DNA from: a virus
DNA length: 34,771 bases
Virus record (IMG/VR): IMGVR_UViG_3300043449_002188
Location: 1 to 34,771 of that record
Strand: one strand, 5' to 3'
Both the position numbers and the translations under genes were made by a program. Below the pieces are notes generated by a model. It did no database searches. It was not told where the DNA came from and worked only from the letters and a program-made list of their open reading frames with translations. Below, piece after piece: positions 546-32,308 of the stretch. Numbering within the stretch: position 1 is the stretch's first letter; each line of letters begins with the position of its first letter.

Positions 546-1178
546 ATGAAAATGTCAGTTTTAATAACCGAACACCAACGAAAAGTTTTAATTACGGAAT
601 CTCTTGTCGAAGATTTTGGTAATGTAATTAAAAACAATTATCGTCTTGCTACTGAAATTTTAAAGGAGTCAAAAGAACAAATGGGTGTAAACCTACAGTT
701 TATGATGACTTGGGGTGCCAGTATTGGTGGATTTGTTGGTCCGTTAACTGATTTTATTGAAGGTAGATACCCTGAATTAAATTCCGCGCAAGTTACTTCA
801 ATATTAATAGGAATTGTTGCAACTTTTTATTTGGACAATAAAAAAATTATTTCTCAAATATTAGAAAAAATTAAGGAACAAGGTTTATCTGAATATTTCA
901 AGGTAACTTTTAACAAAGCCAACGAATTAAAGAATAGTTTTTTATCTTTTGTGGAAAGTTTGAATTTAACTTTTCATAAGGTAACCAATATGATGACATA
1001 CACCTTTATAATACCTCTAGTTGAAAAATTAATATCAATTGCTCAAACAGGTCAGTTAGATGATGGTGATTTAAAACAACTTGCAATGAGAATTTCTTCT
1101 TTTGGGTTATTAACAGTATCTTCGATTGGTATTGTTAAATTGGTGAAAAAAATGGTTAATAGATTTAGAAATAATTAA
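546..1178 (+). CDS. Leader-bearing membrane-associated protein
   Basis: A 210-residue protein I do not recognise. Residues 1-20 (VLITEHQRKVLITES) fit the N-terminal leader shared by several proteins here and contain an I-T-E site. Weakly hydrophobic stretches near residues 50-65 (MTWGASIGGFVG), 80-95 (SILIGIVATFYL), 145-165 and 180-200 could be membrane segments, separated by charged helices. The C-terminus is basic (KKMVNRFRNN). The start follows a late-type motif by 5 nt. The 3' end overlaps the convergent gene by 4 bp. Possible role: a virion or membrane-active protein, inferred from the leader and promoter only. Confidence 0.8.
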   Translation: MKMSVLITEHQRKVLITESLVEDFGNVIKNNYRLATEILKESKEQMGVNLQFMMTWGASIGGFVGPLTDFIEGRYPELNSAQVTSILIGIVATFYLDNKKIISQILEKIKEQGLSEYFKVTFNKANELKNSFLSFVESLNLTFHKVTNMMTYTFIIPLVEKLISIAQTGQLDDGDLKQLAMRISSFGLLTVSSIGIVKLVKKMVNRFRNN

Positions 1179-2155
1179 ATACTATTATTGTAATCCATTA
1201 CCTGTCTTATTACTTCTTCTTGTTCTTCATCATTTAATTTGTGGATATCACCGTGTGTTTCAAACCAATTTTTTACAATTTGTTCAAAAGGTTGTTTTCT
1301 CAAATTAGCTAATCTTCTAAATCCTTTAACTTGTGCTGGAATCTCATGAGATTGTGTGTAGTATTCCAAAGAACCCTCAACATCGTCTTCATCATGACCA
1401 TCAAATTCACCTTTATAAGATTGTAATCCATGTTCTAATTCGTGGGCAATAATTTCATTTAACTCACCTACAATATTATAAAGATTTGTTTTTAGATTAT
1501 TTGGATTAAATAAAATTAAAATTTCAATTACCTCCTCATCAGGAACATAGTTACCATTTATTTTGAATCCTTCTATTTTTTTAGACGTTTTTAAAGTAAG
1601 TTCCACAGTAAATTCAACCGGATATTTTGAGAACGTGTAAAAATCACCTTTATTAGGCAAATAAAAATTACCTGATTTATTATTCTTTAAAATATTAATA
1701 ATGTCTCTAACCACTTGTCTTGTTACCTGTCTGCTCATTTTTTGTTCTCTTAACAGTTCTTCTTCATCAATTTCATAATCAAAAACAAATTCATCGATAA
1801 CAACATTTTTATAATTTTCTGTGTCGAAGAATTGAAGCACCGAAGATAGGTAATTTTCAACTCCACGTTTAAAAGTATACATATTTCTATCTAAATGATA
1901 TAATATTTTTGACCCCCCTACCTTTTTTAGTTGTAATAATATCAGTTTACTAACTTTATCTTTTATATCGGTTACTATTACTTTTATACTCATGTGTGGG
2001 TACGTATCCCCAATACGTATCATATCTCTATATCCCAACAATTCAATCTTAAAATCAATATTACCGTTTAAAGTTTGCATAAGTTCGCCTGTATAATTGA
2101 AAGTGGTATCTTTTAATATATTATTAATCCTATCTATCGCTTTTTCACTTAACAT
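1175..2155 (-). CDS. HExxH metallopeptidase-like protein
   Basis: 326 residues. A zinc-binding HELEH lies at 238-242, and E271 (SHEIPAQVKGF), 29 residues on, could be the third ligand as in gluzincin-type enzymes. The preceding NEIIAHELEH context is typical of an active-site helix. The N-terminal 200 residues are an alpha/beta region I cannot place. The protein at 8771-9811 has the same plan (HECNH, then SEPYEINAKVQE), so the two are probably related. The N-terminus (LSEKAIDRINNILKD) resembles the leader family weakly. A late-type motif ends 3 nt before the ATG. Peptidase activity and substrate are unproven; a structural role is possible. Confidence 0.8.
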   Translation of the reverse strand: MLSEKAIDRINNILKDTTFNYTGELMQTLNGNIDFKIELLGYRDMIRIGDTYPHMSIKVIVTDIKDKVSKLILLQLKKVGGSKILYHLDRNMYTFKRGVENYLSSVLQFFDTENYKNVVIDEFVFDYEIDEEELLREQKMSRQVTRQVVRDIINILKNNKSGNFYLPNKGDFYTFSKYPVEFTVELTLKTSKKIEGFKINGNYVPDEEVIEILILFNPNNLKTNLYNIVGELNEIIAHELEHGLQSYKGEFDGHDEDDVEGSLEYYTQSHEIPAQVKGFRRLANLRKQPFEQIVKNWFETHGDIHKLNDEEQEEVIRQVMDYNNSI

Positions 2156-3225: not shown

Positions 3226-3630
3226 TTACCAAGTTCTACAAGCCCAATATCTTGGTTTCCATCTTGGTCCAGGATTGTCACAATTGTGTCTTGCTCTAAA
3301 AGATTTTCTTCTTTCAGGATTATTTTTCTTGATTACCATTCTTTTTCCTTTTGCCGATTTTCCACCAAAACCAAAGTTTACTTTAACAACTTTTCCTTTG
3401 TCGTTTTTAACATAAACTTTAAATTTTTTAATATCACCTTGCATGATTTTACCAAGTTGTACTTTTCTACCTTGATATTCGGCTTCATTTAAAACATCAG
3501 TAGACTCTAAATCTGTTTCAACAACACTTCCATATTCATCTTCATATATAGTACCCTCATTCATCTGAATGGTAACCATCTCAATAATTCTTTTCAAATC
3601 TGACTCGGTTAATCTTATTATTTTAGCCAT
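3226..3630 (-). CDS. Leader-bearing small basic protein with Cys/Trp tail
   Basis: 134 residues. Residues 1-25 (IIRLTESDLKRIIEMV, then MNEG) are the clearest example of the shared leader, ending in a hydrophobic-x-Glu site. The middle is lysine-rich. The C-terminal 28 residues (FRARHNCDNPGPRW, then YWACRTW) form a compact Cys/His/Trp motif that I recall as recurring at the C-termini of myophage head-related proteins; this is from memory, not a search. A late-type motif lies 15 nt upstream. Likely a virion or head-assembly protein, by inference. Confidence 0.8.
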   Translation of the reverse strand: MAKIIRLTESDLKRIIEMVTIQMNEGTIYEDEYGSVVETDLESTDVLNEAEYQGRKVQLGKIMQGDIKKFKVYVKNDKGKVVKVNFGFGGKSAKGKRMVIKKNNPERRKSFRARHNCDNPGPRWKPRYWACRTW

Positions 3631-3682: not shown

Positions 3683-3874
3683 ATGAAATTGTTATCTACT
3701 ATAATTAAAATTTTATTATCAGCAGTGCTTGGTTTTGGATTTTGGTACTTTATTGGGGTATTATTATCTAGTAATTTTAATATTTTGGAATGGTCTATTT
3801 TTGGGAAAATAATTTATGTATTACTTTCTTGGGGTACGACTAGAAATTTGTTTGAGTTTGTTGAGGATTATTGA
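3683..3874 (+). CDS. Small two-helix membrane protein
   Basis: 63 residues with a hydrophobic helix at about 5-30 (LLSAVLGFGFWYFIGVLL) and a second at about 40-52. The C-terminus is acidic (FEFVEDY). It follows a TTG-N21-TATATTTG promoter, which supports the start and expression on its own. It overlaps the 3' end of the convergent ppk2 by 7 bp. Function unknown; small inner-membrane proteins of this kind in phages can be superinfection or holin-type proteins, but nothing here decides that. Confidence 0.7.
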   Translation: MKLLSTIIKILLSAVLGFGFWYFIGVLLSSNFNILEWSIFGKIIYVLLSWGTTRNLFEFVEDY

Positions 3875-4992
3875 GAATCTGGTCTTAGTACCGTTAAAGC
3901 TTCAGGAAAACTTTTATCTAGAATCTGTTCGTTTTTACCCTCATACGGAATATTTTGAAGTACATATCTAATTGCGTTTAGTCCGGATATTCTCTTGTCG
4001 TTAGAATCCAAAATAACCCAAGGACTATTAAGAGTAGATGTTTTATCGAATAATCTATCTTTGTACTCGGTAAATCTGTCCCAAAGGTCTTGCATATGAG
4101 CGTCATTTGGTGAATATTTCCAGTATTTTAAAGGTGATTTTTGTCTCATATCAAATCTCTTGGCTTGTGTATCCTTATCTATTGAGAACCAAAGTTTAAA
4201 CAGATAATCACCATCTTTAACCAGGTCATTCTCAAAATCCGATACATTATTCATAAAATCCTCATATTCTTCGGGACTTCCGTACCCCATTACAGGTTCT
4301 ATTAATCCTCGATTGTACCAGCTCCTGTCGAACATGTTAATCTTACCTTTTTCAATCTTACTTCTATATCTTTCCCACCAATTTTTACGTTCTTCAGGTG
4401 ACGGTATTCCAAGAGCAATTACATTATATAGTCTTGGATTCATATATTCTGTAAACTTCTTAATTGTGGAGCCTTTTCCGGCAGAATCTCTACCTTCAAA
4501 AACTATAATTACGGTTTTACCGGTTGATTTCAACCACTCTTGTAATTTTAATAACTCAACTTGTAAATAATATAGTTCTTCCTTGTATATTTTTTTAGGT
4601 ACTATAGATGGTTCTTGTAATTCAAATGATGGTTCGTCATCTAACTCGGGTTGGGTGGTAAGAATATCTTTTTGTCTTTTTTTAAGTGACTTTAAAAGTT
4701 GTTTAAAAAATTCTGAAGTGTTTTTATCTTTATTACCTTTAAGTTTTAACACTTTAATTAACCCTCGTTCCAACAAACTAAAATCAATGATTTGTTCTTT
4801 TGAATATTCTGTGATTTTATTTAAATCTTTTTGTCTTTGGGCGCTATAAACTCCTGAAAATTTAAGTAAATCTTTAATTCTATTTAGATAATATTCACTT
4901 CTATTATCCTCTTCACCTTCTTGAAGAATTATGTTGGTTTTAATACCCAACATATCATTAACTCTATTAATTTCTGATATAATTTCCTTCAT
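3868..4992 (-). CDS. ppk2: Polyphosphate kinase 2 (PPK2) with N-terminal extension
   Basis: 374 residues. Residues 136-370 are a complete PPK2 domain: Walker A EGRDSAGKGS at 166-175, the lid region with NWWERYR near 204-210, Walker B FDRSWYNRG at 221-229, then VMGYGSPEEYEDF and SPLKYWKYSPND. PPK2 moves phosphate between polyphosphate and nucleotides. The first 135 residues are not part of PPK2: they begin with EIISEINRVNDMLG and IILQE, a leader variant ending in L-Q-E, followed by a helical Lys/Glu-rich region. The start overlaps the stop of the upstream membrane gene (ATGA). The phage could use host polyphosphate to keep NTP levels up; the leader raises the possibility of packaging in the virion. 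Confidence 0.92.
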   Translation of the reverse strand: MKEIISEINRVNDMLGIKTNIILQEGEEDNRSEYYLNRIKDLLKFSGVYSAQRQKDLNKITEYSKEQIIDFSLLERGLIKVLKLKGNKDKNTSEFFKQLLKSLKKRQKDILTTQPELDDEPSFELQEPSIVPKKIYKEELYYLQVELLKLQEWLKSTGKTVIIVFEGRDSAGKGSTIKKFTEYMNPRLYNVIALGIPSPEERKNWWERYRSKIEKGKINMFDRSWYNRGLIEPVMGYGSPEEYEDFMNNVSDFENDLVKDGDYLFKLWFSIDKDTQAKRFDMRQKSPLKYWKYSPNDAHMQDLWDRFTEYKDRLFDKTSTLNSPWVILDSNDKRISGLNAIRYVLQNIPYEGKNEQILDKSFPEALTVLRPDSQ

Positions 4993-6785: not shown

Positions 6786-8651
6786 TTACTTTTCTTTTAC
6801 CTCTTCAAAATCCACATCGGACACTTCAACGTCAGGTTGCTGACCTTCATTTGTCTCACTGTAAATTCCTTGGGTAATTGTTTGAGTCACTAAGGCCAGT
6901 TTACCTGTACCATTTCTAACTTTTTCCATATCTTTTTCTGAAACCGCAGTTTTCAGTTCAGATAGAGCCTCCGCTAGTTGTGTCTTTTGCTCTTCGGTCA
7001 TTTTTTCTTCCAAGTCCTTCATTGTTTTTTCAGATTGGAAAATCAATGAGTCCGCTTGGTTGAGTGTGTCAACATCTTCTCTTGCCTTTTTGTCTGCTTC
7101 GGCATTCATTTCAGCGTCTTGTCTCATCTTTTCGATTTCTTCTTTTGAAAGGCCCGATGATGATTCAATTCGGATAGATTGTTGTTTGTTGGTTGCCTTA
7201 TCCATTGCCGACACGTTGATGATACCGTTTGCATCAATGTCAAAGGTTACTTCAACTTGTGGTATTCCTCGCATTGCCGGTGGTAGTCCGTCCAAAATGA
7301 AACGACCAATTGTTCGGTTGTCTTGAGCCATTGCTCTCTCTCCTTGAAGGACGTGAATCTCAACTGATGGTTGATTATCAACCGCTGTTGAAAACACTTG
7401 AGACTTTTTAGTTGGGATTGTTGTATTTGCCTCGATTAGTTTTGTAAAAACCCCACCTTGTGTTTCGATACCAAGTGATAGTGGAGTTACATCAAGTAAC
7501 AATACATCTTTAACATCCCCTGCGAGTACACCTCCTTGAATTGCCGCGCCAAGTGCAACAACTTCATCAGGGTTAACTCCTTTTGATGGTTCTTTACCGA
7601 AGAATTTTTTAACCTGTTCTTGGATTGCCGGAATACGAGTCGAACCTCCAACCAAAATAATTTCATCAATGTCGGATGGTTTCAGACCTGCGTTTTTAAG
7701 TGCTGACTTACAAGGAGCAATTGTACGTTGTACCAAACTGTCAACCAACTGCTCAAACTTTGCCTTTGTCAATGTACGAACCAAGTGTTTTGGCATACCA
7801 TCTACTGGCATAATGTAAGGAAGGTTGATTTCAGTTGATGGTGAAGATGACAATTCAATCTTTGCCTTTTCAGCTCCTTCACGAAGACGTTGAAGTGCCA
7901 TTGGGTCTTTGGTCAAATCAATTCCGTTCTCGTCTTGGAATTCTTTTGCCAACCAATCGATAATTGCTTGGTCGAAATCATCACCACCTAGGTGAGTATC
8001 ACCGTCAGTTGACAATACTTCAAATACACCCTCACCGAGTTCGAGAACCGATACGTCGTGAGTACCACCACCACAGTCAAATACAACAACTTTCATGTCT
8101 GAACCTTTTTTGTCGAGACCGTAAGCAAGTGCCGCCGCGGTTGGTTCGTTGATGATACGTTTAACAGTTAGACCCGCAATTTCACCAGCTTCTTTCGTTG
8201 CTTGACGTTGAGCGTCGTTGAAATATGCCGGTACTGTAATAACCGCCTCGGTTACTGTTTCACCCAAATAATCCTCAGCAGTTTGCTTCATCTTTTGAAG
8301 GACCATTGCCGAGATTTCTTGTGGTGAATACTTCTTGTCGTCAATCTGAACACGAGGAGTGTTACCATCACCCTTAACCACTTTATAAGGAACACGCTTG
8401 ATTTCTTTTTTACTTTCATCGTGACTTGTTCCCATAAAACGCTTAATAGAGTAAACTGTTTTATCAGGATTTGTAACCGCTTGACGCTTTGCCGGGTCAC
8501 CAATCTTTCTCTCACCACCATTTGCAAAACCAACAATCGAAGGGGTGGTTCTTTTTCCTTCACTGTTTGTAATCACAACAGGTTCGCCATTCTCCATAAC
8601 GGCTACACACGAATTTGTTGTTCCTAAGTCAATACCTATAATTTTACCCAT
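6786..8651 (-). CDS. dnaK: Molecular chaperone DnaK (Hsp70)
   Basis: 621 residues and apparently intact. It starts [20 protein letters not shown], has the phosphate-2 motif [18 protein letters not shown], the adenosine motif [16 protein letters not shown], the interdomain linker [13 protein letters not shown] and a full substrate-binding and lid domain, ending [10 protein letters not shown]. Slightly shorter than typical Bacteroidota DnaK but close in sequence feel. No dnaJ or grpE is nearby, so host co-chaperones would be needed. By eye its codons are richer in G+C than neighbouring genes, consistent with later capture from a host; I have not computed this. Expected role: folding phage proteins during the burst. 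A TTG-N20-TATATTTT promoter lies upstream. Confidence 0.97.
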
Positions 8652-8770: not shown

Positions 8771-9811
8771 TTAAACTTCGGGTTCTATTGCGTAGAGTCT
8801 CATATACTTTTTAAGTAGAGTTTCTCCCGCCTTATTGATTCTTGGTTGGAATTTGTTGACCAAATCAACCAAGTGTTTAGACTGTTCGATATATCTTGCT
8901 GGTTTTTCATTATGGAATTTCATCCATTTAAAATAATCCGTTAAAAACCATTTATATAAATTATTTAAAACACTTAATTCTTTACCTGGTGAAACCTCAC
9001 CTATTTTTTCAAGTAAATTATCTATATAAACTTCCGCATTAAATGTCCTTAAACTATTTGCCTCTTCCCAATACCTTGAATTTTTAAATTCATCGAATGA
9101 CATTCTGGCTCTTAAACTGTACGCCTCTTGGACTTTCGCATTAATTTCATATGGTTCCGAATTGTAAACATAGTATAAAAAATCCTGCCATACATTAAAA
9201 ATTTCTTTTCTTAAATTAACATTTTTACCACCAGCCCAACTTAAACTAACATTTACTTGTTTTGCTCCCGATTCCGCTCTTTTATAAAATTCGTATAAGT
9301 GATTACACTCGTGAGTGATTGTATCTCTAAAATCAAATAACACAGATTCACTCATACTATCTTCATACGAACTAGTTAGAGTAAGGTTAAAATCTAATTT
9401 AGCAACCAATGTTTGGTCAACCTCCTCTAACACATATTTTGGTAATTCAAATGATGGTTCTTTTAAATAAGAACTTCCAGCATATTGTTTTTGTATTGAA
9501 TTAGCAACCCCACCAGACGCAAATGGAATCGTGGATTTTTTTCTTGGTGAATTTTTTAATGTCAAAACTATATGCATTTCTTCAATCGGTAATTCAATAA
9601 AATCATCCATACTGGATTGATAAACATAAGATATTTCCTCAGGAGTGATTTTGATTTTTTGTACACCACTTTTTTTAGTTTGAAGAAAATCTTTTATAAT
9701 AGGTTCTAATTTGGTGTATATTAGATTGGTATAGGCCAAAGCGGCACGAGAAACACCTAAATCTTCTTTAATTAATTTTTTTAACTGTTCTTCTGATAGT
9801 CTAACTCGCAT
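8771..9811 (-). CDS. Leader-bearing HExxH metallopeptidase-like protein
   Basis: 346 residues. The N-terminus MRVRLSEEQLKKLIKEDLG is the shared leader and ends in I-K-E. HECNH at 167-171 is a zinc-type motif, with E222 in SEPYEINAKVQEAY as possible third ligand; the same layout appears in the protein at 1175-2155. The rest is soluble and mixed alpha/beta. A late-type motif ends 3 nt before the ATG. If the leader targets the virion, this would be a packaged peptidase; substrates could be head proteins or host cell-envelope proteins. Neither is shown by the sequence. Confidence 0.82.
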   Translation of the reverse strand: MRVRLSEEQLKKLIKEDLGVSRAALAYTNLIYTKLEPIIKDFLQTKKSGVQKIKITPEEISYVYQSSMDDFIELPIEEMHIVLTLKNSPRKKSTIPFASGGVANSIQKQYAGSSYLKEPSFELPKYVLEEVDQTLVAKLDFNLTLTSSYEDSMSESVLFDFRDTITHECNHLYEFYKRAESGAKQVNVSLSWAGGKNVNLRKEIFNVWQDFLYYVYNSEPYEINAKVQEAYSLRARMSFDEFKNSRYWEEANSLRTFNAEVYIDNLLEKIGEVSPGKELSVLNNLYKWFLTDYFKWMKFHNEKPARYIEQSKHLVDLVNKFQPRINKAGETLLKKYMRLYAIEPEV

Positions 9812-12522: not shown

Positions 12523-13212
12523 TTAGATAAAATCCAACTTATTCGTTACAGGGTCCCATTCTACTGTCAGTGGTTTTTGGGTGTATTGATACTGTTCATC
12601 TAAAACGGAAGCATTAATGTAGTGAGTATCACCATCAAAAACATAACCATACCCTGAATGTATATGTCCGCAGACATGAATTTTGGGTTTTATTGTCTTA
12701 ATTCTTTTTGCCAGTAATTCACAACCAAGATTAAGATATTGACCAATAATTTTGTCTAAATAACCTAACGCAGGTCCGTGAGTTACAAGTATGTCAGTAT
12801 CCTCAGGAATGTTGTTCCACTTTTGTTCAAGTTCTAATCCACCTTTTAATAAGTTAAACGCCCAATTGTGAAATTCAGGTTGCCAAGGACTGCCATAAAT
12901 TTTAACATAATTTTCGGTATCAACTCCATAACCCAAAAAACTATCCTGAAGATAAAGAATGTCCTTATAAAAATTAACAACCTCTTTAGCCATTTCAGGT
13001 TCTTTTTCAAACCCAAAGTCGTGATTACCAGCAATGAATGTTTTAACTGTATAATTTTCTAAACTGTTAAACCACTTACAGAATTCTTGGATTTCATGCT
13101 TATAACCCATTGATGATATATCACCAGCATGAATCAATAAATCACCTCCAGGTAAAGAACTTGTTACCTGTTTGTGTTTATTATGAGTATCGCTGATGAA
13201 TGTTATTTTCAT
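12523..13212 (-). CDS. Calcineurin-like metallophosphoesterase (MPPED-like)
   Basis: 229 residues with the full set of metal ligands in order: SDTHNKH near the N-terminus, HAGDISSMG, AGNHDFGFE, THGPALGYLD and CGHIHSGYG. The pattern resembles the MPPED/UPF0046 branch of metallophosphoesterases. Such enzymes hydrolyse phosphodiesters or phosphomonoesters; the substrate cannot be read from the sequence. The ATG overlaps the nusG stop (ATGA), and a terminator follows, so it is the last gene of an operon with nusG. It is not closely similar to the second metallophosphoesterase at 30526. Confidence 0.9.
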   Translation of the reverse strand: MKITFISDTHNKHKQVTSSLPGGDLLIHAGDISSMGYKHEIQEFCKWFNSLENYTVKTFIAGNHDFGFEKEPEMAKEVVNFYKDILYLQDSFLGYGVDTENYVKIYGSPWQPEFHNWAFNLLKGGLELEQKWNNIPEDTDILVTHGPALGYLDKIIGQYLNLGCELLAKRIKTIKPKIHVCGHIHSGYGYVFDGDTHYINASVLDEQYQYTQKPLTVEWDPVTNKLDFI

Positions 13213-13730
13213 TTTCTTACTTGGGTGTCTTCTAATTCAACAGATGTTGGTCTGCCAAAGATAAGAACATTTACTTTAATCTTACCTTTTTCTTTATCAA
13301 TAAATTCAATGTTGCCTTTGAAAGATGTAAACGGTCCTTCGGTTACAGTTACCTCATCACCAACGCTGAATATGTCTGAAAAACTTTTTGTTTTATTTTC
13401 CTCGTGGAGACCAATCATTCGACTTACTTCTTGGTCTGATACGACTTGAATATTTCCCGCTCTGTCAGATAACAAACCTGTGGCTCCATCAATTTTTTTA
13501 ACAACTTGTTTTAGTTCTCCGATTGCGGATGTCTCAACAAAAACATATCCGGGAAATAAAACTTTTTCACGTTGTGTTTTTTTGCCATCCTTGGTTGCAA
13601 AAACTTTTTCCATTGGAACCACGACTCTACCGATTACTCCATTGAGTTCCCCTTTGTCGGCTTCTTTTAAAATTCTTTCTGAGACTTTTCTCTCACGATT
13701 TGATTGTGCTCTTACAATGTACCATTCCAT
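13209..13730 (-). CDS. nusG: Transcription elongation factor NusG
   Basis: 173 residues. The NGN domain starts EWYIVRAQSNRERKV and includes FPGYVFVE, and the C-terminal KOW domain reads VGDEVTVTEGPFTSFKGNIE. Close in length to bacterial NusG. It binds RNA polymerase at the clamp helices and raises processivity. A phage copy may favour phage templates, or work with a modified polymerase; both are inference. It is coupled to the metallophosphoesterase downstream (ATGA) and preceded by a conserved phage protein of unknown function. The operon begins at a TATATTTG box at 14578-14585. Confidence 0.95.
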   Translation of the reverse strand: MEWYIVRAQSNRERKVSERILKEADKGELNGVIGRVVVPMEKVFATKDGKKTQREKVLFPGYVFVETSAIGELKQVVKKIDGATGLLSDRAGNIQVVSDQEVSRMIGLHEENKTKSFSDIFSVGDEVTVTEGPFTSFKGNIEFIDKEKGKIKVNVLIFGRPTSVELEDTQVRK

Positions 13731-15755: not shown

Positions 15756-15826
15756 AAAAAATTAGGTTTTTTTGATTAATGGTTTGTTAAATGAAAAAAA
15801 TACCTTATTATTTAAAAAAATACATT

Positions 15827-16252
15827 ATGAAAACAATACAAGATTCAGATTCAGTATCGGTTAACTACACCGGTCGATTGGAAGATGGTTCAGTTTTCGA
15901 TTCTTCACTTACCGAAGGTCGTGAGCCATTGAAAGCTAAATTAGGTCAAGGTCAATTAATCAAAGGTTTTGAAAAAGGTTTGATTGGTATGACAATTGGT
16001 GAAACAAAAACCATTGAAATTCCTTGCGAGGAGGCTTATGGTGAGGTAAACGAAATGATGGTCAGCGAAATTTCAAAGGACCAAGTGCCGGAAAACGTAT
16101 CAGTTGGTGATATGTTGCAGGGTATGGGACCAAACGGACCAATTAATGTTCGTATTACTGAAATTGGTGAATCAACTGTTAAAATTGATGCTAATCACCC
16201 TTTGGCGGGTAAAAAATTGATTTTTGATTTGGAAGTTGTCGGTATAGACTAA
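15827..16252 (+). CDS. FKBP-type peptidyl-prolyl isomerase (SlyD-like)
   Basis: 141 residues from the ATG at 15827 (MKTIQDSDSVSVNYTGRLED), which is where FKBP homology begins; an ATG at 15791 would add 12 residues that do not match the family. The first half has VFDSS, GQGQLIKGFEKGLIGM and ETKTIEIP, followed by a SlyD-type insert-in-flap domain and the closing NHPLAGKKLIFDLEVVGI. The His-rich metal tail of SlyD is absent. It speeds proline isomerisation and can act as a chaperone, and fits with DnaK as a protein-folding aid in this genome. Confidence 0.93.
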   Translation: MKTIQDSDSVSVNYTGRLEDGSVFDSSLTEGREPLKAKLGQGQLIKGFEKGLIGMTIGETKTIEIPCEEAYGEVNEMMVSEISKDQVPENVSVGDMLQGMGPNGPINVRITEIGESTVKIDANHPLAGKKLIFDLEVVGID

Positions 16253-16692: not shown

Positions 16693-17517
16693 ATGAGAAA
16701 AATATTAATTTCAGAACAAGAAAAAAATCATATTAAAAAACTTCATAATATAAATGAACAGTCTTTCATTGAAAAAAGTCTTGAGATGGCTTTGAAAAGA
16801 ATGTTTGAAAAACCTAAATCCTCATCAGAAACTACCTCATCTGAAACTAAACCGTCAGATTCTACATCATCTGACACCGGTCCAATTGATGGGGATGTAA
16901 AATTAGTGGGTAATTTTGACGATACCCAAAAAAGAAACATTAAATTAATGATTGATTATATGAATGAAAAAGGAATTACTGACCCACTCGCTCAAATAGG
17001 TATATTATCAGTAATTTCAAAAGAATGTAACTTCAAACCAAAATCAGAGGTCTCATATGCCACAACATCGAATTCAAGAATTAGAAAAATTTTCGGTAAA
17101 AGGGTTGCAAAATATTCTGATAGTGAGTTAAATTCAATAAAGCAAGATGAAGAAAGATTTTTTAATATAGTATACGCAAATATAATAGGTAATGGTAATG
17201 AAGCTAGTGGTGATGGGTATAGATACAGAGGCAGAGGATTTAACCAATTAACCGGAAGAGGGAATTATAGAAAATATGGTAATATGATTGGTAAGGATTT
17301 AGTTGGTAATCCTGATTTAGTAAATGACCCTGAAACCGCGGCGGAAATCGCAATTGCATTTTTTACAAAAGGTAAATCAGGTGGTTCTTTTCCTAGATTT
17401 ACAGACAAAGAGGATGCTGCAGGATATTTTGCAGATATAAATGCAGGAGGAGGTTCGAGCTCTCACAGAGGTAATGCTATCGCCGCTTCAACAAAGTTTG
17501 ATGTTAACGTCGCTTAA
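16693..17517 (+). CDS. GH19 chitinase/lysozyme-like enzyme with leader
   Basis: 274 residues. Residues 1-22 (KILISEQEKNHIKKLHNINE) are a leader variant ending I-N-E. A Ser/Thr-rich linker (about 42-62) leads to a GH19-type domain from residue 75: E111 in SVISKECNFKP and E119 nearby are candidate catalytic acids, and RGRGFNQLTGRGNY at 179-192 is the GH19 signature. In phages GH19 enzymes usually cut peptidoglycan. The linker is typical of secreted or virion-associated hydrolases. With the leader, it could be a packaged entry lysin rather than, or as well as, the lysis endolysin. Confidence 0.88.
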   Translation: MRKILISEQEKNHIKKLHNINEQSFIEKSLEMALKRMFEKPKSSSETTSSETKPSDSTSSDTGPIDGDVKLVGNFDDTQKRNIKLMIDYMNEKGITDPLAQIGILSVISKECNFKPKSEVSYATTSNSRIRKIFGKRVAKYSDSELNSIKQDEERFFNIVYANIIGNGNEASGDGYRYRGRGFNQLTGRGNYRKYGNMIGKDLVGNPDLVNDPETAAEIAIAFFTKGKSGGSFPRFTDKEDAAGYFADINAGGGSSSHRGNAIAASTKFDVNVA

Positions 17518-18386: not shown

Positions 18387-18959
18387 TTACCTAACAACCG
18401 TTACATGACCGAAAATTATTTCAGGTTCGTTGTCAATTCCATTCCAAGTAACCTTATATTCATAAACATCATTTTGAACATAGTAGTCACCACCTCTGAA
18501 ATTTCCAATCCATTGCCCTTTTGGGTCAACTGATTTAAATACTAGTTCCCCCCATCTATCAAACACAAGTACTTCGATACTTTCCCATCCTTTTCCTTGT
18601 GGGAACCAAATATCGTTAATACCATCACCATTTGGGGTAAATGCATTTGGAATATATATAGAAGAACATTCACCTATAAAAACTCGATACCTTAATGGGT
18701 CTGATAAACATTCTTCTGTTTTACCATAAACAGTTATTTCATGTATACCAGGTGAATAAGTTTCCCAGTCAACGGTTAAGGTTTGTCCAAAATGGTAAAC
18801 TCCGTCTATATACCAATAAAATGTTGTATTTGGTGTGTCAGATTGTACAGAGTACGTATACTCTTTTTTAGAGTCTTCCTCACAAATATCTATTTCTTGT
18901 TGCTGTCCAAGCACAACCATAACGAAAAACAACAACAAGATTGTTTTTATGTTTTTCAT
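18387..18959 (-). CDS. Secreted protein with T9SS type B (CHU_C) sorting domain
   Basis: 190 residues. A signal peptide (TILLLFFVMVVLGQQ) is followed by an Ig-like region (about 30-90) and a complete gliding-motility-associated C-terminal domain: YIPNAFTPNGDGINDIW near 97-113, then VLVFDRWGELVFKS and a closing FGHVTVVR. This domain directs proteins through the Bacteroidota type IX secretion system to the cell surface. It is the last of three signal-peptide proteins in a row (20714 to 18387) and starts 2 nt past the previous stop. Finding it in a phage context suggests surface remodelling of the infected cell, or a virion protein borrowed from a host adhesin. Confidence 0.88.
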   Translation of the reverse strand: MKNIKTILLLFFVMVVLGQQQEIDICEEDSKKEYTYSVQSDTPNTTFYWYIDGVYHFGQTLTVDWETYSPGIHEITVYGKTEECLSDPLRYRVFIGECSSIYIPNAFTPNGDGINDIWFPQGKGWESIEVLVFDRWGELVFKSVDPKGQWIGNFRGGDYYVQNDVYEYKVTWNGIDNEPEIIFGHVTVVR

Positions 18960-18961
18960 TA

Positions 18962-19519
18962 TTAGTCATGCGAAATATTGTCTAAAACAGGAATTGGATA
19001 GACGGTCATATCAGCTGTCGCAGTGAATGTACATCCCGCCTCAGTTATGGTGTAAGTCACCGTTTCTGTTCCCTCCGTTTGTGGGCAATATTGACCATTA
19101 ACAATGTTTGGTCCTGAGAATACACCACCAGCTGGTGTTGCAACCAAATCTTCGCAAGGGTCACCTTCACAAAATACAAGTGGAGTAATCACAGGGTTGA
19201 TTTCAAGAATAAATACATTCATCGTGATTGGTGGTCCGTCACAACCCGCAGGTGTTGTTGCATAAACACTAACCGCATCTACGATAGGACCGCCAGCAGG
19301 TGCTGCCGACCAATCAACCGTTATTTCATTTGTTCCTTGACCTGATGTTAAAACACCAGGAGCAGAAACAGTCCAGTTATAAGTATAGTTTGGAGTATTT
19401 GGAACCTGATAAGTTGCAAAAGGGTCATTAATACAAACTGTATCAGGATTAATCGTTGTAAATTGAGCAAAAAGTGTGATTGGTAGTATTGCCAATACAA
19501 GTAATAAGAGTTTTTTCAT
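18962..19519 (-). CDS. Secreted Ig/PKD-like repeat protein
   Basis: 185 residues: a signal peptide (LLLLVLAILPITLFAQ) followed by two Ig/PKD-like beta domains with YNWTVSAPG, NEITVDWSA, VTYTITEAGCTFTATADMTV. These modules fill large Bacteroidota surface adhesins. It has no sorting domain and ends in ISHD, as does the protein at 19566. A late-type motif lies 27 nt upstream and the CHU_C protein follows immediately. It may assemble with its neighbours or be exported only to the periplasm. Confidence 0.8.
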   Translation of the reverse strand: MKKLLLLVLAILPITLFAQFTTINPDTVCINDPFATYQVPNTPNYTYNWTVSAPGVLTSGQGTNEITVDWSAAPAGGPIVDAVSVYATTPAGCDGPPITMNVFILEINPVITPLVFCEGDPCEDLVATPAGGVFSGPNIVNGQYCPQTEGTETVTYTITEAGCTFTATADMTVYPIPVLDNISHD

Positions 19520-19546
19520 GTTTAAAGTAGTTAGAGTTTATTCTAC

Positions 19547-19556
19547 TATAAATATC
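19547..19556 (-). promoter_or_regulatory. Late-type motif GATATTTATA
   Basis: Lies 27 nt before the ATG at 19519, inside the gap between two secreted-protein genes; candidate promoter for the last two of them. Confidence 0.5.
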
Positions 19557-19565
19557 TGAAAAAAT

Positions 19566-20714
19566 CTAATCGTGACTAATAATTCCTGGTATTATCGGAA
19601 TTTCGTAAACTTCCACTTCACAATTTGCAATATCAGTGCAGTTTGTTCCCACAACATGTGCAGTCATCGTTACATTATAGACACCGGGAGAAATATAAGT
19701 GTGAGATGGAGAATATAAGTTTGAAGTTTGTCCGTCATCGAAGTCCCATAAATATGTAGTTTCATATCCCTGTATTGTAGGTGTTAAATTTGTAAAATTA
19801 ACTATATCAGGAAAACATACATCTTCACATATTATGCTCGATAGTAAAGGTATCGGGTCAAGGACTATTTGAAGGTCAAGTTCACATCCTGTAACAGTTG
19901 TAACATTTAATGTTAAATTTGTGTAAGTATTTGATGGTACTGTTATAACTCTTGTAGTATCTCCTGTTGGTGACCAATCATATGTTGCGAATCCTTCTGG
20001 ACCTTCAATTAGTGTGGAATCACTTGCCTGACAATAACGAATTTTTGTTTCAATTGGACTACACGATATTGCGTCAACATATGCATATCCGTAGTGTCCT
20101 CCTAAATCACAATCACCAGTTTCAAATTCAAGTGTAACACTTTGTCCAATGTATCCTGATAAGTCTAATGACACTACTCTCCAATCACTCCAAGCAATTG
20201 GTACTGGATTACCGGGTATTGTACAATAATTAAATCCCTGTAAGTTGGGTCCTGCCGTTACCATATATTCCGTACAAGGAATCACTGTTCCGTTCGCCAG
20301 TCTAACTCTTGATTGAAATCTTGGCTGGTCACCGTCACTATGTCCTGGGTCTTGTAAGACAACCGCGTAAGCATATTGTACCAAAGTTGTTGTGGGACTA
20401 ACTGTAAATGTGTAATATAAACCTTCAGCTCTTGCTTGGTTTTGGTTATTTCCAAGTCTTGCAGAAAAATTCCCTTCATAAACCATGTTTAGTCCTCCGC
20501 ATGTGTTTGGGTCAAGACCTGCACTCACTATGGTTTGTCTACCGGCAAATATACCAACAAAAGGTAAATTAATGGGACAACAAAATCCTCTTCTTCCCGT
20601 CCAATTTGTAAAGTCACCAAATTCAAAATTTGCGTTTGGACATTGGGCAATAGAGATTAACCCACATAATGTGAGTATTATTAAAACAATAATATTCTTA
20701 AACTTCTGACCCAA
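19566..20714 (-). CDS. Large secreted protein with PKD domain
   Basis: 382 residues. A signal peptide (IIVLIILTLCGLISIAQ) is followed by a roughly 200-residue beta-rich region beginning CPNANFEFGDFTNWTGRRGF and holding SLDLSGYIGQSVTLEFETGD, which resembles jelly-roll carbohydrate-binding modules. An Ig-like region follows, then a PKD domain with YLWDFDDGQTSNLYSPSHTY. It ends in ISHD with no sorting domain. The start is a TTG at 20714 that overlaps the thioesterase stop; no ATG gives a complete signal peptide. Glycan or surface binding is likely from the domains. Confidence 0.8.
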   Translation of the reverse strand: MGQKFKNIIVLIILTLCGLISIAQCPNANFEFGDFTNWTGRRGFCCPINLPFVGIFAGRQTIVSAGLDPNTCGGLNMVYEGNFSARLGNNQNQARAEGLYYTFTVSPTTTLVQYAYAVVLQDPGHSDGDQPRFQSRVRLANGTVIPCTEYMVTAGPNLQGFNYCTIPGNPVPIAWSDWRVVSLDLSGYIGQSVTLEFETGDCDLGGHYGYAYVDAISCSPIETKIRYCQASDSTLIEGPEGFATYDWSPTGDTTRVITVPSNTYTNLTLNVTTVTGCELDLQIVLDPIPLLSSIICEDVCFPDIVNFTNLTPTIQGYETTYLWDFDDGQTSNLYSPSHTYISPGVYNVTMTAHVVGTNCTDIANCEVEVYEIPIIPGIISHD

Positions 20715-27814: not shown

Positions 27815-29296
27815 TTAGGAATTTTTCAACACTCCGTTAACTCTACCCTGTTGTGATGTTGTATCAAAACTAATTGAATTTGACCCAATTTCCAAAACAT
27901 TTTGAACAAGATGCTCACACATAAAAACATCATGTCCGTATGTCATATTATCATCCTCGGCAATTTTTAACTTATCTGTTACTTTATCCGATTCATCAAG
28001 AATATGACTAACAACAACATCTTGAAATGGATTTTCTCCTCTTAATTTTTCTACGGTCTTTATTTCAATCTCACTGGTTCCGTAATTCAAAACATTATTA
28101 ATGAATTTTTCTTCATCCACCAACTCACCTGAACGATATGTATTAATGGTATTATTTAGTATTTCATCTGTTACATAATCATCATTGTGGTATGCCTCTC
28201 CAATTGTTTCTACATCGTGGTTTAATATATCTTCCACCAATCCTTCTTGAGCCCATTGCACCTTAACAGTTGTTTTTACCTCATGGTTTAATACCTCTTC
28301 CGTCATCGAATTTTTCGGCATATAACTCCAATCGGCGGTTTCTATCTCGTGGTTTAATAGTTCTTCAACCGTGTTATTGAGTGGTAAATCCTCCCATTGA
28401 GTTGTTTCTACCTCGTTATTTAATACCTCTTCCACCGCTCCATAGTTGTTGAATGGATGAAATGCGGTTGTTTCTACCTCGCAATTTAATACCTTTTCCA
28501 CCCATTGATAATGCACCATCGTTCCTGGCGCTGTTGTTTCTACCTCGCAATTTAATACCTGTTCTACCTCAAAAGGCTCCATCACCTTATTCATTGAAGT
28601 TGTTTCTACATTGTGGTCTAACACCTCTTCCACCATTCCTTCTTTAATGAGTATTTGCGCACTAGTTGTTTCTACCTCGTGGTTTAATACCTCTTCCACC
28701 TCTGTTTGGAGCATTCGTTGGAATCCACTGGTTGTTTCTACCTCACAATTTAATACCGTTTCCACCAGTCTTGGCTTTTGTAGAAATTGGCGAGCGGTTG
28801 TTTCTACCTCGTGGTTTAATATTTCGCCAACCGCAATCGGGTGTAATTCCTGTTTTTCAGCTGTAGTCTTTAAATTACTATTTAATACCTCTTTCACCGA
28901 TGCGACATTTTCAGACTCTTGGTAATTTGTTGTTTCCACCTCGTGGTTTAACACCTCTTTAACTTCTTCTTTAAAGTTAATGATACTTCCAACGGTCTTA
29001 AAAACTTTATTGGGGTACTTACATTCAAGAATTTGTTTCTTATTCAAAATTGAACTAACAAGCTCACCAAACAGATACTGATGTTCTTCACCATTTAGTG
29101 AAAACATTGTAAGGGCAGATTGGAAATGTGACCACCTCCACCAAAGGTGTTTATCTGTTTTATGGTATTCAAAATACCAATATTTCTGTTCTCTATCGAT
29201 AAACCAAATACTATCTTTGTAGTAAATGATTTCAACCGGCATAAGGTCTTTAAGTAGAAATTCTACGATTAATTTTTTTAGTCTGTCGGAAAACAT
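27815..29296 (-). CDS. Repeat protein with thirteen 22-residue units
   Basis: 493 residues. Residues 1-110 are a non-repetitive Trp/Tyr-rich domain (IDREQKYWYFEYHKTDKHLW, then WRWSHFQSA). From about 111 to 387, thirteen units of exactly 22 residues follow: a conserved 12-residue core (VEEVLNHEVETT) plus 10 residues that differ completely from unit to unit. The last 105 residues have degenerate cores (INNVLNYGTSEI, VQNVLEIG). The core looks like a short helix, so a solenoid or beads-on-a-string with variable loops is likely. Last gene of the operon that starts at 31191. I know no function. The unbroken frame and non-repeat ends support real coding. Confidence 0.85.
   Translation of the reverse strand: MFSDRLKKLIVEFLLKDLMPVEIIYYKDSIWFIDREQKYWYFEYHKTDKHLWWRWSHFQSALTMFSLNGEEHQYLFGELVSSILNKKQILECKYPNKVFKTVGSIINFKEEVKEVLNHEVETTNYQESENVASVKEVLNSNLKTTAEKQELHPIAVGEILNHEVETTARQFLQKPRLVETVLNCEVETTSGFQRMLQTEVEEVLNHEVETTSAQILIKEGMVEEVLDHNVETTSMNKVMEPFEVEQVLNCEVETTAPGTMVHYQWVEKVLNCEVETTAFHPFNNYGAVEEVLNNEVETTQWEDLPLNNTVEELLNHEIETADWSYMPKNSMTEEVLNHEVKTTVKVQWAQEGLVEDILNHDVETIGEAYHNDDYVTDEILNNTINTYRSGELVDEEKFINNVLNYGTSEIEIKTVEKLRGENPFQDVVVSHILDESDKVTDKLKIAEDDNMTYGHDVFMCEHLVQNVLEIGSNSISFDTTSQQGRVNGVLKNS
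28137..28964 (-). repeat. Thirteen 66-bp tandem units: 36-bp core plus 30-bp variable segment
   Basis: Cores begin at 28137 (degenerate), 28203, 28269, 28335, 28401, 28467, 28533, 28599, 28665, 28731, 28797, 28863 and 28929 with no change in spacing. Core bases are conserved even at many third codon positions, while the 30-bp segments show no similarity to each other. The variation inside cores is mostly at one codon (His, Cys or Asn). Confidence 0.9.
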
Positions 29297-31259: not shown

Positions 31260-31709
31260 ATGAGTTTAAGAGAAACCATTAAAAGAATATTAAAAGAAGA
31301 AAGGGCACCTAGCAAAGTATTAAGAAGGACTTACGAGATTGATAGGGAATTTAAAAGATTAATGAGTGCGGTTTATAGACCAAATTCAATTTGTAGATAT
31401 GAAAATGGTAGAGAATTGGGTGATGTTGTAACTGAAGCGATTTTAGAAAATCTGTATTATAATACTTTTTATGAAATAGATGACAGGTCCGATGAGTGGA
31501 TAGACATTTCTAACTTTGTGGTTAAATACATAAGAGAAAACTACGGAGAAGAATTAACAAATTATTACAATGATAATTGTAATTCAGATAAAATGGAAAC
31601 AAATGAATCAGAACTAACTGAAAAGTGTTGGCCAGGTTATACTCAAAAAGGAATGAAAACTATGTTTGGTAAAAGATATCCAAATTGTGTTAAAAAGACA
31701 AAGAAATGA
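31260..31709 (+). CDS. Leader-bearing protein with CWPGY/PNCVKK tail
   Basis: 149 residues from the ATG at 31260, where the shared leader begins (MSLRETIKRILKEERAPSK, ending I-L-K-E); a longer frame from 31014 would cross the opposing gene. The middle is helical and acidic. The last 27 residues (CWPGYTQKGMKTMFGKRYPN, then CVKKTKK) form a two-Cys basic motif that I recall at the C-termini of myophage head-associated proteins. It overlaps the next leader-bearing gene by 4 bp. Probable virion protein, by inference. Confidence 0.8.
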   Translation: MSLRETIKRILKEERAPSKVLRRTYEIDREFKRLMSAVYRPNSICRYENGRELGDVVTEAILENLYYNTFYEIDDRSDEWIDISNFVVKYIRENYGEELTNYYNDNCNSDKMETNESELTEKCWPGYTQKGMKTMFGKRYPNCVKKTKK

Positions 31710-32308
31710 ATCTAAAAGAAACCATAAAAAAAGTATTAAGAGAAGAAAGTCGGTTAAAAAAAACGGTTAATGATTATATTAGTCAGTTCGGATTAAAGGA
31801 TACTGCAAAAATGATGGGTATAAGTTTAGCCAAAATAGTAGAAATTTCAGACCACCCGATAGATTCAGAAGTCGCTCACGAATTATTAATTGATAATCTT
31901 AAAAATAAAAAATTACCAAGAGAATATAGAGATTTTAAAATTTCAAATGGAATAGACGGAGTTGTATATTGGGAAATGAGTAGAGATTCAAAACATTTTT
32001 TACCAGGTATGACCGAACAAATTTCAGTGCTTGCAACTCCTTTTTGGGATGGAAACCCGTGGACTCCTGTTGATATTGATTGGTTTACTTTACTTAATGA
32101 AGATGGTGATATAATAGCCGAAAAGCAACCTAGTGGAGATTACTACGTCCAACTTAAACATAAAACATCTTTTGATACCGTGGATGAACTATTTGAATGG
32201 TATCATGAATATTATCTACCGGTAGTTTACTCAACTGTTATGAGAGATTTATTACCGGGAGTATATCAAGAAATTGATGATAAATTAGATAACGAAGGTG
32301 GTTATTAA
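31706..32308 (+). CDS. Leader-bearing hypothetical protein
   Basis: 200 residues. The leader MNLKETIKKVLREESRLKK is a near copy of the one on the upstream protein, ending V-L-R-E. A short helical region (DYISQFGLKDTAKMMGISLA) looks like a helix-turn-helix-type or capsid-interaction segment, followed by a mixed domain (WEMSRDSKHFLPGMTEQISV, then PWTPVDIDWFTLL). Coupled to the upstream gene (ATGA). Its last 4 bp overlap the convergent reductase gene. Function unknown. Confidence 0.78.
   Translation: MNLKETIKKVLREESRLKKTVNDYISQFGLKDTAKMMGISLAKIVEISDHPIDSEVAHELLIDNLKNKKLPREYRDFKISNGIDGVVYWEMSRDSKHFLPGMTEQISVLATPFWDGNPWTPVDIDWFTLLNEDGDIIAEKQPSGDYYVQLKHKTSFDTVDELFEWYHEYYLPVVYSTVMRDLLPGVYQEIDDKLDNEGGY

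Follow-up and report, generated by a model that had tools for sequence, protein, structure and literature searches.

In Flavobacterium columnare, the repeats of the type II-C and type VI-B CRISPR arrays are both 36 bp long and have a leader-distal GTTGT in common, and the VI-B locus acquires spacers with the II-C enzymes in trans (PMC8092290). VI-B2 arrays alternate 36-nt repeats with 30-nt spacers (PMC13187072). Our literature searches found no description of translated CRISPR arrays or of phage decoy arrays. To our knowledge, copying of a fixed repeat, addition of a new spacer of fixed length, polarity and whole-spacer turnover occur together only in CRISPR adaptation. Here we describe a phage gene that probably carries a translated CRISPR-like array, one that would grow by insertion of a spacer together with a copy of the repeat; this mode of growth appears well supported by sequence comparison.

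The stretch of DNA that was analysed (the window) is an IMG/VR record of 34,771 bases. To judge from its genes, it derives from a large Bacteroidota phage; short DNA stretches of the thymidylate synthase gene match Flavobacterium phages of the immuto group at 81-92% identity. An uninterrupted ORF of 493 aa with an ATG start lies at 29296-27815 (-); its features are listed in Table 1. As described in the original prediction, and confirmed here for both the ORF and the units, residues 112-397 consist of 13 back-to-back 66-nt units (28963-28106), each made of a 12-residue core and 10 unrelated residues. The consensus of the 36-nt repeat is GGTGGAAGAGGTATTAAACCACGAGGTAGAAACAAC, and the fifth-unit repeat (28665..28700) includes the out-of-phase leading G discussed below. 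Towards either end of the array, the repeats of the window are more degenerate than is usual among the relatives. The domain ends in the helix that gives VEEVLN in relatives, and the C-terminal region contains decayed unit-like pieces (INNVLN, VVSHILD, LVQNVLE). The spacer RSGELVDEEK is recognisable in distant relatives as SHGTLIDEDK (L006) and DGGEMIDEES (L026). No protein family library matches the gene (Pfam, PHROGs and PDB sequences were searched, and the N-terminal domain has no convincing family).

Table 1. Features of the array-bearing gene, in window coordinates.
Feature	Position	Strand	Basis
Conserved N-terminal domain, residues 1-87, uncharacterised	29036..29296	-	alignment of 26 relatives; AlphaFold of L021 relative
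Linker from domain to first unit (LECKYPNKVFKTVGSIINFKEE region), window clade	28964..29035	-	also in L003/L006 orthologue
Array, 13 units of 66 nt (36-nt repeat + 30-nt variable segment), one open frame	28106..28963	-	
Best-preserved 36-nt DNA repeat of the array, fifth unit, VEEVLNHEVETT	28665..28700	-	
Oldest, domain-distal spacer, RSGELVDEEK	28106..28135	-	
C-terminal region	27818..28105	-	conserved in L003/L006 orthologue
Stop codon	27815..27817	-	

Relatives were collected from IMG/VR with a DNA pattern of two cores spaced 66 nt apart, followed by an alignment search and a broader pattern. The family comprises 51 distinct genes in contigs of freshwater phages, which are metagenomic and in many cases incomplete, and its layout is one conserved domain of ~80 aa followed by the array. 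INPHARED contains no relative of the family. In 257 Gb of prokaryote genomes (GTDB) the repeat pattern gave only two matches, both in unrelated sequences. Up to four family genes are present per phage, some of them arranged in tandem such that the stop codon of one overlaps the start codon of the next. For example, L011:7199-9447 and L014:7352-9456 each hold three tandem paralogues with this overlap, and translation through each array may thus be needed for expression of the next gene. One homologue (L015:13995-14393) has no array. No neighbouring integrase or other helper gene is common to the clades; a tyrosine integrase was found in one record only.

An orthologue of the window gene is present in four identical IMG/VR contigs with the same gene neighbourhood. 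The ends of the two proteins align well and the cores are similar, while all loops but the last differ and the unit count of the orthologue is about half that of the window. Comparison of the locus across related phages thus agrees with the prediction that loops vary while cores persist between orthologues. The frame is also intact in relatives, so that the prediction survived its own test, which was for loops conserved in place between related phages or for the lack of a homologue with an intact frame.

Elsewhere in the window, a phage-encoded polyphosphate kinase 2 is found at 3868-4992 (-) (PF03976, E 8e-71), together with complete-looking genes for what we take, from sequence, to be DnaK, a NusG-like protein and an FKBP-type isomerase (6786-8651 (-), 13209-13730 (-) and 15791-16252 (+), respectively). 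Three secreted-looking proteins are encoded at 18387-20714 (-), and one of them appears, by eye, to end like the gliding/T9SS proteins of Bacteroidota, in a segment resembling their C-terminal sorting domain. A short N-terminal segment of the type LITExQLxxII recurs, in similar form, at the start of many phage proteins that are otherwise unrelated. In the window it is found in the ORFs at 8771-9811 (-), 16693-17517 (+), 546-1178 (+), 3226-3630 (-), 31706-32308 (+) and 1175-2155 (-), and it recurs in many ORFs of L090-L128. A rough version of the motif is present within residues 2-16 in 112 of 836 ORFs, against ~19 for internal segments. This segment could be a packaging or targeting tag.

In an AlphaFold model of the L021 relative, residues 1-85 form a domain with a pLDDT of ~93, predicted to consist of a helix, four strands and two helices, the last of which ends in VEEVLN. 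The array is predicted to be disordered (pLDDT 31-39, from a shallow alignment of 29 sequences). The original prediction had envisaged a 22-residue solenoid as scaffold, and this model does not support a solenoid repeat protein; the suggested multi-target binder or antigen-like display is conceivable. Comparison of the domain with the PDB (Foldseek, VIA-align) gave nothing above Z 4.2, which does not in itself show a new fold. The nearest predicted structures are the uncultured Caudovirales phage proteins A0A6J5L6U7, A0A6J5L9N2 and A0A6J5L9L5, which are 42-45% identical and as long as the array-bearing members; structure comparison also retrieved shorter proteins with the same domain (A0A6J5L5X4, A0A6J5L5U3). 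These entries are named as uncharacterised only, and the record names mention no array behaviour.

Across 167 units that were drawn from all of the family and differ in their spacers, information is 0.4-2 bits per base over exactly 36 nt and falls to ~0.05-0.2 bit over the next 30 nt, a contrast that places the pattern far from chance. The conserved block is one base out of codon phase. Its first base is the third position of the last variable codon (G in 162 of 167 units), and its last base is the second position of the final Thr codon, whose wobble base is left outside. The leading G would be explained if every repeat were ultimately a copy of the first repeat, which follows the Trp codon TGG of the domain. 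The junction of domain and repeat reads ...TCTTG|GGTGG..., with the motif GGTGGAAGAGG. Comparison of the first repeat among 23 diverged genes shows six synonymous positions without any variation (GTG 21/21, GAA 22/22, GAG 20/20, AAT 22/22, AAG 18/18 and ACA 15/15), while the other wobble sites are free. The upstream domain is largely saturated, the exception being its final codons at the junction (TCT 10/10). Differences of cores from the consensus of their own gene amount to 365 nonsynonymous and 196 synonymous codons, and this excess of nonsynonymous change among copies argues that protein constraint on the cores is weak. The near-constancy of the cores that had been noted in the window is that of a sharp, family-wide DNA block of 36 nt; the cores are not strongly constrained as protein, and the window copies are comparatively degenerate. 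The repeat ends in ACAAC on the domain-distal side, which is GTTGT on the opposite strand. The repeat versions differ between clades, and a hairpin is found in only some of them, none being conserved.

Spacers were 30 nt long in 221 of the 239 gaps of a frame-blind scan; five gaps of 36 nt are copies of one unit type with a 6-nt insertion inside its repeat. Distances between pairs of spacers are bimodal, with 17 pairs at 1-6, none at 7-10 and the rest random-like. Spacers are thus either common as a whole or unrelated. It had been proposed that the variable parts were exchanged or strongly diversified: replacement is seen, and it is of whole spacers, whereas strong diversification finds no counterpart in any gradual divergence. 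The repeats beside the domain are near-identical, and in 32 of 34 genes the repeats decay more the farther they lie from the domain (pooled rho -0.49), the window array being one of the two without this polarity. Unique spacers concentrate at the domain end, filling 10 of 27 first places but 3 of 48 in the last two (p=0.0013), and the far end is common by descent; the relatedness of alleles means that tests across genes are not fully independent. The CRISPR-like geometry that was first noticed in the window goes much deeper than claimed, and extends to repeat copying at the DNA level, constant spacer length, polarity and whole-spacer turnover.

The composition of the spacers is foreign to their surroundings. 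Spacer GC is 0.411; the loci have ~0.32, and the domain sequences range over 0.24-0.34 (~29%). In all arrays that hold at least three spacers, spacer GC exceeds that of the accompanying domain sequence. GC showed no drift with spacer age. Flavobacterium DNA has a mean GC below that of the spacers. In the ORF-based set there are no in-frame stops, against 26-53% in the other frames. This set had been collected through open frames, and the count was therefore redone on the frame-blind scan, in which one of 157 spacers has an in-frame stop. That spacer follows the seventh unit of L035 (-), carries an in-frame TAG and is succeeded by decayed, out-of-frame repeats; this array was apparently cut off by its own insertion. 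Codon usage of the spacers in frame is above that of shuffled spacers and well below that of real phage coding sequence, as expected of captured DNA filtered for stops. No source of the spacers was found in INPHARED (~110 spacers), plasmids (22), IMG/VR (8, exact matches) or ~1.5 Mb of DNA from kin phages (all spacers), the best local matches of 17-22 nt being at chance level for 158 spacers.

Sequence comparison shows that the repeated unit is one of DNA, that spacers keep to 30 nt and are turned over whole, that the arrays are polar, that the composition of the spacers is foreign and that the frame is under selection to stay open. We propose that a small folded domain is followed by a disordered tail that would lengthen by 66 nt per step, each step adding one copy of the 36-nt repeat and 30 nt of new, foreign DNA. 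The repeat would represent the end of the last helix of the domain plus the first tail residues (GGTGGAAGAGGTNYTRAATNNNAAGGTNNNNACAAC). Since 36 and 30 make 66, an insertion would keep the frame. Entry would be mainly at the junction of the domain-coding sequence, which would act as leader, and the first repeat, with older units drifting toward the 3' end. Units would also be lost and shuffled through recombination between repeats, and spacers that bring a stop would be selected out. Several findings speak against this proposal: no spacer source and no cas1 or cas2 turned up in the searches described here, no matching array in GTDB and no conserved hairpin were seen, the window array shows no polarity, and the spacers exceed Flavobacterium DNA in GC.

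We consider it rather unlikely that the arrays arise by cassette shuffling alone, with the 36-nt repeats serving as recombination homology for units swapped from a large pool among paralogues and co-infecting relatives, and with the protein presenting variable peptides (as a binder, a decoy or an antigen-like display). Groups of alleles keep the order of their common spacers with gains and losses, L027 holds a B-type unit in another gene, two tandem paralogues in L034 have their last spacer in common, and selection for open frames is strong, all of which fits such exchange. However, shuffling makes no new spacers, and it leaves the foreign GC, the polarity and the uniform 30 nt unexplained, as well as the synonymous constraint on the first repeat across genes without common spacers. 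Nor was a common pool seen: unrelated clades have no spacers in common. Gains are seen in related arrays. In L037 an additional internal spacer is flanked by two identical copies of a local variant repeat, which L011 and L017 have only once, and L057 has one 5' unit more than L054, although the repeat variants of this pair do not reflect a simple duplication.

It is improbable that the locus is a guide-producing CRISPR array whose translation is incidental and whose transcripts are used by a host Cas13b or Cas9 against competitors. The 36/30 geometry is like that of type VI-B (PMC13187072), phages with CRISPR arrays are known (PMC4916379), and CRISPR arrays are documented as a source of spurious proteins (PMC7673337). 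Against this stand the in-frame fusion to a conserved folded domain, the near absence of stops from the spacers, the decay of the repeats and their differences between clades, the lack of a conserved hairpin, and the finding that no GTDB genome holds a CRISPR array fitting the repeat pattern. An ordinary repeat protein, whose loops accumulate point mutations through diversifying selection or hypermutation (e.g. DGR-like), would account for loops more variable than cores, but is scarcely credible given the lack of intermediate spacer distances, a block out of codon phase, weak protein constraint on the cores, a tail predicted to be disordered and no reverse transcriptase in the records. A diversity-generating retroelement was likewise rejected, since RVT_1 was not found in 16 phage records and spacers show no gradual divergence.

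If the arrays grow by insertion, an agent has to be named. Cas1 was not found in 31 phage records, nor Cas2 above the cut-off in 16, records that may be incomplete; together with the lack of a reverse transcriptase, this means that the enzyme at work would have to come from the host or be a phage enzyme of unknown kind. The leading candidate, put forward tentatively, is the host Cas1-Cas2 acting in trans, since the II-C and VI-B arrays of Flavobacteriia likewise have 36-bp repeats with a leader-distal GTTGT. As to function, the array might serve as a sink that draws host spacer-acquisition complexes into a harmless phage tail and away from the host array, a doubtful suggestion with which the 66-nt step, neutral to the frame, and a junction that mimics leader and repeat would agree. 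More speculative still is the composite idea that a coding sequence mimicking this junction is at once an adaptation sink and a translated record of DNA sampled in the cell. Peptide display, for its part, fits the selection for open frames.

A growing CRISPR-like array that is also a selected coding sequence has not been described in the literature searched. Should the host adaptation machinery write the array, it would represent an undescribed phage counter-defence, and the arrays would serve as a natural record of the DNA inside freshwater bacteria under infection. Should an unknown phage enzyme write it, this would be a DNA-insertion machine of an undescribed kind, working to a 36/30 ruler.

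Like CRISPR arrays in general, the family has direct repeats and spacers of constant length, with polarity (in the family, not in the window array); unlike them, it is coding, its frame being under selection and fused to a conserved domain. With the VI-B and II-C arrays of Flavobacteriia (PMC8092290, PMC13187072) it has in common the 36-nt repeat, the 30-nt spacer, polarity from the leader end, decayed distal repeats, the leader-distal GTTGT (on the opposite strand) and duplication of a repeat with each new spacer, though the resemblance to the Flavobacterium repeats themselves is limited to length and this five-base motif. It differs from them in that the phage array lies in a translated gene, is fused to a domain and is selected against stops, and in that no cas genes, conserved repeat hairpin or spacer source were found for it. 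Spurious translated CRISPR arrays also alternate constant blocks with unrelated segments in the protein (PMC7673337), whereas here the frame is part of a conserved gene family, and 156 of 157 spacers leave it open. Diversity-generating retroelements, finally, are a comparable case of phage-borne, targeted protein variation; in the present family, where no reverse transcriptase was found, variation takes the form of whole-segment replacement and copy-number change rather than base-specific mutation.
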